From positions 1-25,615 of IMG/VR virus record IMGVR_UViG_3300025674_000345: a stretch of DNA of 25,615 nt. One strand, given 5' to 3'. The translations under genes were made by a program, and so were the position numbers. A model generated the notes under the pieces. It was given only the letters and a program-made list of their open reading frames with translations, was not told the DNA's origin and did not search any database. Every line of letters starts with the position of its first letter. Positions within the stretch are counted from its first letter, which is position 1. This document shows, piece by piece, positions 1,190-13,107 of the stretch. This DNA is from a virus.

Positions 1190-1233
1190 TTTGAAATAAG
1201 CAAAGGAAGGGGGGGCAACCCCCTTCCTTTGCT
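1190..1233 (-). terminator. Strong hairpin terminator after gene 32
   Basis: Bases 1199-1233 form a 15-bp inverted repeat (AGCAAAGGAAGGGGG and its complement) around a 5-base loop. It starts 13 bases past the gp32 stop and is followed on the minus strand by TTATTTC. The U-tract is short, so some read-through into uvsX is expected, and the uvsX Shine-Dalgarno lies immediately downstream. The plus-strand side is also T-rich (TTGTTTT), so it could act in both directions. A terminator after gene 32 is also known in T4. Confidence 0.8.
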
Positions 1234-1246
1234 TTGTTTTAGCGCT

Positions 1247-1990: not shown

Positions 1991-2812
1991 CTAAATGTTG
2001 GTATATTGTGGATAATTTGTGAACTTTTCAATTATCGTGTACATTTCTTGATTTTCTGTTTTTATGATTGAATATGTGCTTCTTGTTATGTCTGTTTCAT
2101 AGCTATGCTTCTCCGTCTCGATAGATGGTAACAGGGTTTCATCTTCCTGTAAAGTCTTCTCTGGGACCACACACAGTAGATTACACCCTCTTGGGTTTTT
2201 AAAGTCAAATGATTCAACAGGTTCTGATGACTCTGGTTGCTTTAAATCAATACTAAGAATCCATGCATATTCTGGAGGGTCTTCGTAGTAAGATATGATT
2301 TTTTCAGATGAAAGAAGCGCTCGGTATGCTGTATAGGACCAAACAATATACTTGTTTACTTTACTATACAGAGCTAAAACTGGCGCAGAGCCAACATGGT
2401 CTGTTATTTTTTGGCTATCATATAGGTAAAGTTTAAACTTAGCGCTTAAAGCAAAATGAGTCAAAACTCCAAAAATAACCTTTTCTTTCTTTTTAGCTGT
2501 TTCTGATAGGTTTTTTAAGAAAGGGCGAACGTATATCACAGAAATTTTCTTTTTAGATACCTTCTGCAAAACCCTCAAAGTAATAAACGTTGTATCTCCA
2601 GAGCCCGATAAAAAGACTATCACCTCCTTGGCTTTTGTCAAAGTTCTAGGTAATTTTACCTTAGATTCATACTCTTCTGGCGTGCTGAACCTTGGAATAA
2701 TGTAGCTAGCCTCTTTCTCGTCAAACGTAACAAGTTCAGAATTTGGATTATCTTCGTGAGCCAAGTTTGCTAATTGAGTGCCGGCTTTACCAATACCAAT
2801 AAAACATATCAT
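1991..2812 (-). CDS. Divergent FtsZ/tubulin-superfamily protein (candidate)
   Basis: 273 residues with the order of landmarks expected for an FtsZ-type GTPase fold. Residues 3-14 (CFIGIGKAGTQL) resemble the first glycine-rich loop (IGVGGGGxNA). SELVTFD at 25-31 resembles the second strand (FIAVNTD). VIVFLSGSGDTTF at 64-76 sits where the tubulin signature GGGTGTG lies. ISVIYVRPF at 90-98 matches the VGVVTRPF strand, and FKLYLYDSQKI at 126-136 matches LIVIPNDRL. The signature is degenerate and no NxDxxD catalytic T7 loop is visible, so GTP binding or hydrolysis may be altered or lost. Its ATG overlaps the polymerase stop by 4 bases (ATGA), and gp32 follows 10 bases later, placing it inside a replication gene set. 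A plain Rossmann nucleotide-binding protein is the main alternative. Assignment is from motif pattern only; the role is unknown. Confidence 0.6.
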   Translation of the reverse strand: MICFIGIGKAGTQLANLAHEDNPNSELVTFDEKEASYIIPRFSTPEEYESKVKLPRTLTKAKEVIVFLSGSGDTTFITLRVLQKVSKKKISVIYVRPFLKNLSETAKKKEKVIFGVLTHFALSAKFKLYLYDSQKITDHVGSAPVLALYSKVNKYIVWSYTAYRALLSSEKIISYYEDPPEYAWILSIDLKQPESSEPVESFDFKNPRGCNLLCVVPEKTLQEDETLLPSIETEKHSYETDITRSTYSIIKTENQEMYTIIEKFTNYPQYTNI

Positions 2813-3939
2813 AGCTTTTTTAGTGCTCCATAGTTCTTGCCGATACTAGCATTGACTTTATAATTCCCAAAAGGAGTTCTCCTGAACTCTTTGTATATTT
2901 TTGATATAAGGTGGGCGTCTTGATTTGAAAAATCAAGCACTAAAGAATCGTGCATTGTAAAATAAATTTTAGATTTATGGCCTTTTAATATCTTACTGAT
3001 TTCAGAGGCTCTAAGCAACAACATGTCTGACGTTGTCCCTTGTAGTAAATAGTTTAGTGCATGATATTTATCGCAATAAATGTGCCTGTTAGTGGGCGTA
3101 TGGAGCGATTTTCCATCAAAATACTCTTTTAGAATATCGTCCCGATTAAAGATTTTTTCTAGCTCCGGGTCCGATTTGTTACCGTCATAGAGCCATGAAA
3201 AAACACGGCGCTTAGCTTCGTCCCTTGTGGTACCGGTCGGAAACACATTCTCCATCAAAAACTCATGAATGTCTTTCTCTGGCTGGTCTATACCCATTAA
3301 AAACAAAAGGGTGCGAATCTCGGCTGCGTTATAGTCTAGCTCTATTAAAAAATCATTCTCGGGGACTATAGAAGGCCTGTATACCTTGTCAAGGCTTAAA
3401 ATTGGGAAACTAGACTGTTTAGTTGTGAGCCTTCCCGTTACAGACCTCCACATATCGTAAAGAATAAATCTCGGCTGCGCTCGAAGCTTTGTAAATTTAT
3501 CATACCGGCGGTGGAAGGCATTGACATTTTGCCATTCAACCTTCAATTTGTTACGCCCAACCTCCTGCACTAAGTCATATATTGCCGACATTTCATTGTA
3601 ATTCTTAGGAGGCTCTACGCTTTTTATTGTATATTCTGCTATGCTTTTAATAACATCGCAGTACTCGTTAACTACTGCGGCTGGAATCATGCTAATTTCT
3701 TCTTCACGAGATACGCTTATTCCAGCGTTCTTTAGACTATTAAAATGCGCTGATAGCCTTTTGTGCCCCTTAAAGTATCTGTCTTCGAGGTGTGGTGGGC
3801 AGATTTTTTGGAAATCATCTGATTTGCCAAGAATGCTTGCTTGTTTTAGAAGCTCTGGCAGATCTGAACACGAATAAGAACGACATAAACTATAGTAGTC
3901 TATCGCTGACGGGCGGCTGTTTTGACTCGTAGAGGTCAT
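2809..3939 (-). CDS. Family A DNA polymerase, polymerase domain only
   Basis: Replicative-type DNA polymerase of the Pol I family. TGRLTTKQSSFPIL (168-181) matches the TGRLSS motif; motif A is LDYNAAEIR at 201-209 with metal ligand D202. Motif B has the canonical spacing R239, K243, F247, Y251; LNYLLQGTTSDML (295-307) matches the NxxxQGTAAD helix; motif C is H330-D331-S332. The last position is normally Glu (HDE), so Ser is unusual. At 376 residues it has no 3'-5' exonuclease domain and little of the thumb, so proofreading must come from another protein if present. Most T4 relatives use family B gp43; a split polymerase is known from the distant T4 relative RM378 (recalled, not checked). The start at 3939 has a GGAAGG site and overlaps the upstream gene by 50 bases. 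Confidence 0.9.
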   Translation of the reverse strand: MTSTSQNSRPSAIDYYSLCRSYSCSDLPELLKQASILGKSDDFQKICPPHLEDRYFKGHKRLSAHFNSLKNAGISVSREEEISMIPAAVVNEYCDVIKSIAEYTIKSVEPPKNYNEMSAIYDLVQEVGRNKLKVEWQNVNAFHRRYDKFTKLRAQPRFILYDMWRSVTGRLTTKQSSFPILSLDKVYRPSIVPENDFLIELDYNAAEIRTLLFLMGIDQPEKDIHEFLMENVFPTGTTRDEAKRRVFSWLYDGNKSDPELEKIFNRDDILKEYFDGKSLHTPTNRHIYCDKYHALNYLLQGTTSDMLLLRASEISKILKGHKSKIYFTMHDSLVLDFSNQDAHLISKIYKEFRRTPFGNYKVNASIGKNYGALKKL

Positions 3940-11872: not shown

Positions 11873-12532
11873 CTATTTTATACTAGCGTTGTTGAAATTA
11901 GGGCTAGAAAACCTTCTAGCGTTGGGAGTGTTACCTCCCGAGTCTTTAAAGAACGTAAATTCGGCCCAGTCATAAGTCACATTAAACGATAGCGTGCTTA
12001 AATCTTCAGACGCATATGTGACTTGAGTCGGCGTCATTCCAACTATAAATGCGTTCCTGAGCACCCACTCTTCTACGATATCGCCTGCGGGATTTAGTAT
12101 TCTTATCTTAAACGGCCCGAGTGAATCTATTAAGTCTCTTTTCGCCAAATCTTTATTTGGAACATTTATACTCTGCGGGTTCAAAAGATTCGGAGTATCG
12201 TAAGCTGTATAGAGTAACTTATCCATAAAGACGCCGGCTACTGAATTTATTACTTCTTTTGAAAATACTTCTATAACAGTGAAAGATATGTCTTTCCAAT
12301 CTATTGTCTTGGGGTATTTAGAGGTCCAATTCAAAAGTTTTATTTCTTGAGTCTGAAGTGTGTATGACGGGCGCTGTACGTCTTTGATGTATGCGGCATC
12401 AATGCCACTTATGTTTAAAATAAACCGGTATTGCTGCTGAGCCTCGGTTAAGGCATTTTCCCTAGGAAGGTTAGGGGGTACAGGATAGTTGTAGTTTGTT
12501 ACTTTTCTATCTTTTTCAAAAAAGAATGACAT
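11873..12532 (-). CDS. Second tail tube-like protein (gp19 paralogue)
   Basis: 219 residues. The C-terminal two-thirds follows the same plan as the neighbouring gp19: KTIDWKDISFTVIEVF parallels the other's VTYGDITVTLVDMI, and IRILNPAGDIVEEWVLRNAFI plus ASEDLSTLSFNVTYDWAEF parallel IRVINGEGETAEKWTLKNAWI and GSEDNLNISITLVFDYADV. It has an extra Pro-rich N-terminus and a Ser/Asn-rich C-terminal tail (about 200-219). It may form a distinct ring at one end of the tube or an alternative tube protein. The start ATG at 12532 has an AGGATAG site. It follows gp19 by 23 bases. Confidence 0.78.
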   Translation of the reverse strand: MSFFFEKDRKVTNYNYPVPPNLPRENALTEAQQQYRFILNISGIDAAYIKDVQRPSYTLQTQEIKLLNWTSKYPKTIDWKDISFTVIEVFSKEVINSVAGVFMDKLLYTAYDTPNLLNPQSINVPNKDLAKRDLIDSLGPFKIRILNPAGDIVEEWVLRNAFIVGMTPTQVTYASEDLSTLSFNVTYDWAEFTFFKDSGGNTPNARRFSSPNFNNASIK

Positions 12533-12555: not shown

Positions 12556-13107
12556 TTAATTTGCATCTAAGAGAGCTTGGTTGATCTCTACGTCAGCGTA
12601 ATCAAATACTAGAGTTATACTAATGTTTAGGTTGTCTTCGCTACCGTAATTGAGATCACCAAAGTCAACTCCTGAGATCCAAGCATTCTTTAAGGTCCAC
12701 TTTTCAGCGGTTTCGCCTTCGCCATTAATTACTCTAATTGCAATTTCGCCAAGAGTCCCAACGAATGCTTTCTTAGAGAAGGTCTTGCGATAGTTTGCTG
12801 GGTCTTCTGACCACTGATTTGGCCTTTTATACCCAGCAGATTCAATAACCTTCAATAGCTGACCCGCTACATCTACATTGATCATATCGACTAGAGTAAC
12901 TGTAATGTCCCCATACGTTACTCTGCCGGGGAACTTAAATTCGTGACCAAGGTAATTGTGCCTAGCTCCAGTAGTAATAGTATACTTTGGCCTTGATGAA
13001 GTGATAATTGACCAAGCTGGAATTCCACCAATTGTCATTTGGTATTTAAACTTTCTTTTTGGTTCGATACTGGGGGCGCCCCAAGGTGGTAATGGATTTC
13101 CTGCCAT
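12556..13107 (-). CDS. 19: Major tail tube protein gp19
   Basis: 183 residues, close to T4 gp19 (163). It has the tube-protein pattern: an N-terminal arm, FKYQMTIGGIP, a Gly/Lys strand (FKFPGRVTYGDITVTLVD, about 58-75), a helix carrying KVIESAGYKRPNQW, then IAIRVINGEGETAEKWTLKNAWISGVDF and a final strand pair ending FDYADVEI. It assembles into hexameric rings inside the sheath. Directly downstream of the sheath gene, in the usual gp18-gp19 order. The start ATG at 13107 follows TAGGAGATAAAG, a strong Shine-Dalgarno. Confidence 0.85.
   Translation of the reverse strand: MAGNPLPPWGAPSIEPKRKFKYQMTIGGIPAWSIITSSRPKYTITTGARHNYLGHEFKFPGRVTYGDITVTLVDMINVDVAGQLLKVIESAGYKRPNQWSEDPANYRKTFSKKAFVGTLGEIAIRVINGEGETAEKWTLKNAWISGVDFGDLNYGSEDNLNISITLVFDYADVEINQALLDAN

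Follow-up and report, generated by a model that had tools for sequence, protein, structure and literature searches.

The minus-strand gene at positions 1991–2812 of the analyzed DNA (the window, i.e., 25,615 nucleotides of the IMG/VR virus record IMGVR_UViG_3300025674_000345) encodes a 273-aa protein with the fold of the tubulin/FtsZ superfamily. The original prediction of a divergent member of this superfamily, co-encoded with replication genes, was strongly supported by a family-based structural model and by fold comparison. The protein, named here mini-tubulin, represents a new family within a known superfamily; its setting is new and its chemistry altered. With a probability that we put at about one half, this reduced tubulin/FtsZ member is a core component of the replication operon in one large clade of uncultivated T4-type phages and acts as a pseudo-GTPase partner of the replisome.

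The Mini-Tubulin Gene and Its Operon

The mini-tubulin gene is located between the gene for a family A DNA polymerase (2809–3939, 376 aa) and that for a gp32-like single-strand DNA-binding protein (1247–1981), with a UvsX/RecA-like recombinase encoded further downstream (44–1180), all on the minus strand. The position had been predicted correctly with the strand left unstated; the plus strand is full of stop codons. The anticipated overlap of the mini-tubulin start with the polymerase stop was found as ATGA at 2812–2809 of the minus strand, shared by the TGA and the ATG, and the gap between the mini-tubulin stop and the gp32 start is 9 nt (1982–1990), both being read directly from the sequence. 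The polymerase gene lacks an exonuclease domain and encodes the family A polymerase domain alone. A 16-pair hairpin between gp32 and uvsX (window positions 1198–1234, AAGCAAAGGAAGGGGG...) is probably the end of the transcription unit comprising the polymerase, mini-tubulin and gp32 genes. Promoter-like matches near the operon did not exceed the chance level.

Elsewhere the window encodes a major capsid protein, a head-maturation protease, a tail sheath and two tail tube proteins (PHROG families), and therefore it is a fragment of a T4-type phage. The two tail tube genes, which belong to the same PHROG family, lie side by side (11873–12532 and 12556–13107). A link to cyanophages was not found when psbA was sought in 13 records.

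Discovery and Size of the Family

The window protein alone, used as a query against IMG/VR, retrieved only 99% identical copies, on three other contigs and one partial, and found no match in the isolate-phage collection or in the genome-collection contigs. The search based on gp32 yielded 13 contigs with 40–58% gp32 identity, all of which carried a homologous gene for 264–282 aa in the same place. A profile built from these gp32-linked homologues and run on IMG/VR detected at least 412 relatives, from which 80 loci were kept. The window copy shares only about 22–29% identity with the family. Since a homologous gene is present in 97 other loci, the mini-tubulin open reading frame is not a chance one.

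The family had escaped annotation: no model of Pfam, PHROGs or NCBIfam claims it. The Pfam model PF00091 (Tubulin) gave the window protein 12.9 bits, below the gathering cut-off of 33 bits, and in single-protein scans it scored for 8/81 members with a best E-value of 1e-3. Applied to whole records, the Pfam tubulin model revealed no second tubulin in seven long records. When three family members were compared by tblastn with 50,697 phage records, nothing matched at E ≤ 1, the tubulins of isolate phages included. No relative was found when the clade alignment was run on the genome collection, which thus provided no link to a host or prophage. The literature searched, incomplete in coverage and without preprints, contained no tubulin of a T4-type phage, and neither tubulin nor FtsZ is mentioned in the Far-T4 paper.

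Mini-Tubulin Occupies a Fixed Slot in the Replication Operon

The order polymerase, mini-tubulin, gp32, uvsX defines a fixed slot, kept in every contig long enough for testing, including the 80 loci found by mini-tubulin alone. The polymerase gene lies upstream in 86 of the 97 other loci, and the remaining 11 contigs start less than 1 kb before the mini-tubulin gene; gp32 follows downstream in 92, and the other five contigs end within about 1.4 kb. The distance between the polymerase and mini-tubulin genes was −30 to 60 nt in 52/87 pairs (window counted), and the 4-nt overlap was present in 25 of the 87. Many relatives have a small gene of about 105 aa, starting with KLVRDRIPEII, between the polymerase and the tubulin-like gene (e.g., L028, 371–688; L046, 5661–5999; L098, 5684–6004). 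To the eye its product resembles MazG; no Pfam or PHROGs model supports this.

The mini-tubulin gene was absent from the isolates with the most similar gp32 (Microcystis phage Mel-JY01 and the Flavobacterium immutoviruses) and from the 80 loci closest to the gp32 of Mel-JY01. The slot near a Mel-JY01-type gp32 is usually occupied by a gene for an unrelated protein of 127–138 aa without a Pfam or PHROGs match (L005, 2867–3256; L008, 1346–1801; L128, 4460–4843; and others). This sister-phage protein is conserved, with the motif LVHRKKETNTLYTINSLN. The tubulin-like gene was present in 10/10 tubulin-bearing and 0/10 sister records, and the 127–138 aa gene in 5/5 sister and 0/7 long tubulin-bearing records, the absences being provisional because records may be fragments. 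The two genes never occurred together in the tested records. The idea that the smaller gene is a remnant of mini-tubulin was rejected, as the proteins are unrelated (hhalign probability 0.2%).

The Model Displays a Two-Domain Tubulin Fold

The single AlphaFold2 model, that of the window copy (the most divergent member), was obtained from 81 family sequences without templates. It reached a pLDDT of 95.4 and a pTM of 0.92, whereas the single-sequence model had a pLDDT of 40 and was useless. In Foldseek, the best 50 matches in the PDB were all FtsZ or TubZ, with E from about 1e-11 to 1e-9 (FtsZ about 1e-11). VIA-align gave Z-scores of 23.3 for TubZ (271/273 residues, 3.2 Å), 23.1 for CetZ2, 22.2 for FtsZ and about 20 for tubulins. 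Among viral models, the best match in the fold search was an FtsZ-like protein of an uncultured Caudovirales phage, followed by PhuZ (Noxifer PhuZ, E 5e-6). By the model and the fold comparison, the two-domain fold of the tubulin/FtsZ superfamily thus extends over the whole chain. A plain Rossmann fold, named beforehand as the outcome that would speak against the prediction, was looked for by the fold search and not obtained.

The elements of the model, named by analogy with FtsZ, are S1 (residues 2–7), H1 (8–21), S2 (26–31), S4 (63–69), T4 (69–76), H4 (73–84), S5 (89–96), H5 (104–123), S6 (126–132), H7 (145–168), S7 (185–191), S8 (209–217), H10 (227–237), S9 (244–252) and S10 (258–265). Mini-tubulin and FtsZ share the two-domain fold and the order T1-S2-T4-H4-S5-H5-S6-T6-H7-S7-S8-H10-S9-S10. 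In an independent alignment of the family profile with ten FtsZ and FtsZ-like sequences, T1, T4, S6-T6 and H7 were collinear, and the T6 Asn and the region of the H7 Asn were in register (pairwise P 5e-5). The hhalign probability was only 67%, and therefore the superfamily assignment comes mainly from structure.

Most Members Keep Predicted Nucleotide-Pocket Residues and Lack the Catalytic Motifs

The predicted glycine-rich first loop was found as FIGIGKAGT at T1. The T1 loop itself (GIGKAGT, residues 6–12, minus strand 2777–2797) is the best-conserved part of the pocket, with GxGxxG kept in 77/81 members, the window copy among them. At the T4 position the altered tubulin signature was borne out as FLSGSGDTTF (SGSGDTTF, residues 69–76, minus strand 2585–2608). 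The signature [SAG]GGTG[SAT]G occurs in T4 of none of the 81 members and is replaced by the family consensus GxGxISG, represented in the window by GSGDTTF. The VYVRPF strand exists as VIYVRPF (S5/T5), but its FtsZ-like ‘PF’ is peculiar to the window copy, the Phe occurring only there and Asp in 67/81 relatives. LYLYDSQKI is likewise a real strand, not the terminal one as had been supposed; it is S6 (S6/T6), and about 140 residues follow it. In tubulin/FtsZ GTPases the guanine is read by an Asn in T6 and an Asn or Asp in H7. Asn is found at both of the presumed T6 and H7 positions in 69/81 members (Ser and Asn, respectively, in the window copy), the positions being equated by the profile alignment and the element order. 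The T3 equivalent is short and variable. Taken together, the pocket columns surpass 5000 equally sized random sets in conservation. The kept T1 and the T6/H7 Asn residues suggest that most members still bind nucleotide.

The lack of a T7 loop, noticed originally in the window protein, proved to be a family-wide feature and is accompanied by the lack of helix H8. The region after H7 (residues 168–184, minus strand 2261–2311), where FtsZ has T7 and H8, is short and poorly conserved. H8 is missing, since no helix separates H7 from S7 in the model. The T7 motif NxDxxD was sought in the 81 members and no family-wide motif was found; one stray NFDDDE lies further along the chain. Segment 168–183 is among the least conserved, as are the columns equivalent to T3 and to T7/H8. 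With H8 absent and T7 unconserved, neither canonical hydrolysis nor a canonical filament is expected; judging from these motifs, nucleotide is probably bound by the family but not hydrolyzed in the canonical way. An acidic residue at position 170, directly after H7, is present in 57/81 members, its equivalence to T7 being uncertain, and may allow weak catalysis or a non-canonical filament.

The strongest conserved block of the family is LQE[YF][AT]RSG at the end of H5 (residues 116–124, minus strand 2441–2467; consensus [VI]LQEYARSG). LQExxRS-type residues occur in 80/81 members, and the sole exception is the window copy with LTHFALS, within the degenerate VLTHFALSA. In the window copy, Ser also replaces the T6 Asn, and Trp stands where Arg 184 is otherwise conserved; hence, this copy is a derived outlier, the most altered member of the family. 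These residues do not result from an assembly error because they are shared by its four contig relatives. In one subclade (e.g., the tubulin-like C terminus of L098), a conserved acidic tail, LDDQDI[SG], extends past the last strand and is possibly a docking peptide.

Purifying Selection and Co-Divergence with the Polymerase

Mini-tubulin is under purifying selection. The dN/dS between related copies was 0.07–0.12 for pairs with enough synonymous change; the window copies, nearly identical and with few changes, gave 0.27–0.35. In the 48 loci with all four genes, the mean identity was 37% for the tubulin-like protein, 43% for the polymerase, 55% for gp32 and 66% for UvsX. The partial distance correlation between polymerase and tubulin-like protein, controlled for the other two proteins, reached 0.57 and the other five pairs gave −0.04 to 0.37; linkage may contribute to the former value, since linkage of neighbors and shared history can alone raise it.

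Comparison with Known Tubulin-Like Proteins

FtsZ is the cell division GTPase of bacteria and archaea, whereas mini-tubulin is viral and encoded beside replication genes. Their identity is about 11%, and unlike FtsZ mini-tubulin has no GGGTGTG, T3 GLGAGANP or T7 NxDxxD, no H8 or H9, and no long linker with a C-terminal peptide. TubZ of plasmid and prophage segregation and CetZ of archaea gave the top structural Z-scores (23.3 and 23.1), but they are much longer than mini-tubulin and contain the catalytic and filament parts. Their roles are in DNA segregation or cell shape. PhuZ, the phage TubZ of phiKZ-type jumbo phages (annotated PHIKZ039), is also a phage-encoded member of the superfamily. 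In contrast to mini-tubulin with its lost T7 motif, PhuZ retains the T7 Asp and assembles into filaments (PMC3678025); its gene belongs to phages of about 280 kb and is not part of a pol-gp32-uvsX cluster. FtsZl-1 and FtsZl-2 are likewise divergent members of the superfamily in which standard filament elements are thought to be missing (Makarova and Koonin 2010, PMC2875224). By its description FtsZl-1 is set apart, having an altered S6-T7 region and an unrelated C-terminal domain, whereas mini-tubulin keeps the S8-H10-S9-S10 domain (PMC2875224).

Possible Roles of Mini-Tubulin

The retained residues of the presumed pocket, the loss of T7 and H8, the fixed slot and the tracking of the polymerase led us to favor a nucleotide-binding pseudo-GTPase serving as a scaffold or accessory of the replisome. 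Most members would bind a guanine nucleotide without hydrolyzing it by the tubulin mechanism and would not build canonical head-to-tail protofilaments. Mini-tubulin would assist the reduced family A polymerase and its neighbors in a structural or a regulatory capacity, and the LQExxRS motif of H5 would be a likely hot spot, either for binding or structural. In the window copy, deprived of LQExxRS and of the T6 Asn, nucleotide binding is perhaps gone. A more specific version, which we put forward tentatively as the less probable form of the idea, makes the pseudo-GTPase an obligate subunit of the viral replisome, a nucleotide-sensing processivity or assembly factor of the minimal family A polymerase that replaces the unrelated slot protein of the sister phages.

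Formation of PhuZ/TubZ-like filaments that position or organize the replicating phage genome is an unlikely role, although it has a precedent in PhuZ, a phage tubulin positioning DNA (PMC4244570). It agrees with the whole-chain match to the filament-forming TubZ and CetZ, with the similarity to Noxifer PhuZ, and with the T1 and T6/H7 Asn kept by most members. However, in the protofilaments of phiKZ TubZ, tubulin and FtsZ the subunit contact is made by loop T7, the base of H8 and strand S9 (PMC3678025), and of these H8 is lacking in the mini-tubulin model and the T7 region is unconserved; the tubulin signature is missing in 81/81 members.

Still less probable is a role as a mimic of FtsZ, capping or poisoning the division ring of the host. 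The FtsZ-like fold fits it, a filament cap is conceivable from a subunit without one of its two longitudinal faces, and phage inhibitors of FtsZ (T7 Gp0.4, lambda Kil, T5 Hdi, P1 Icd) are common, but the known ones are unrelated proteins. Even very divergent phages keep the mini-tubulin gene within the replication operon, its distances follow those of the polymerase, and at 37% mean identity one constant host-facing surface seems unlikely. The kept pol-mini-tubulin-gp32 order and the co-divergence with the polymerase favor a replisome role over host takeover.

The reading as an NAD(P)-binding protein of Rossmann type, with a GxGxxG that merely resembles T1 of FtsZ, prompted by TrkA_N scoring in more single-protein scans than Tubulin (31/81 members, best 9e-6) and by weak matches to dehydrogenases, was rejected as highly improbable, because short GxGxxG matches are expected from the Rossmann-like GTPase domain of FtsZ itself and the confident full-length model fits FtsZ, TubZ, CetZ and tubulin in both domains, whereas Rossmann dehydrogenases have no such C-terminal domain.

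Significance

To our knowledge, the phage tubulins known until now, PhuZ and TubZ, are GTPases that form filaments, and they come from jumbo phages, a prophage or plasmids. Mini-tubulins constitute a separate and widespread family from another type of phage, and a single viral collection contains at least 412 copies. They are tied to replication genes and have lost the parts for GTP hydrolysis and polymerization. Hundreds of unannotated viral genes can now be named. If mini-tubulin is indeed a partner of the replisome, the tubulin fold would have been reused as a replication factor, and the family would offer a small, well-behaved target for studying tubulin function without polymerization.
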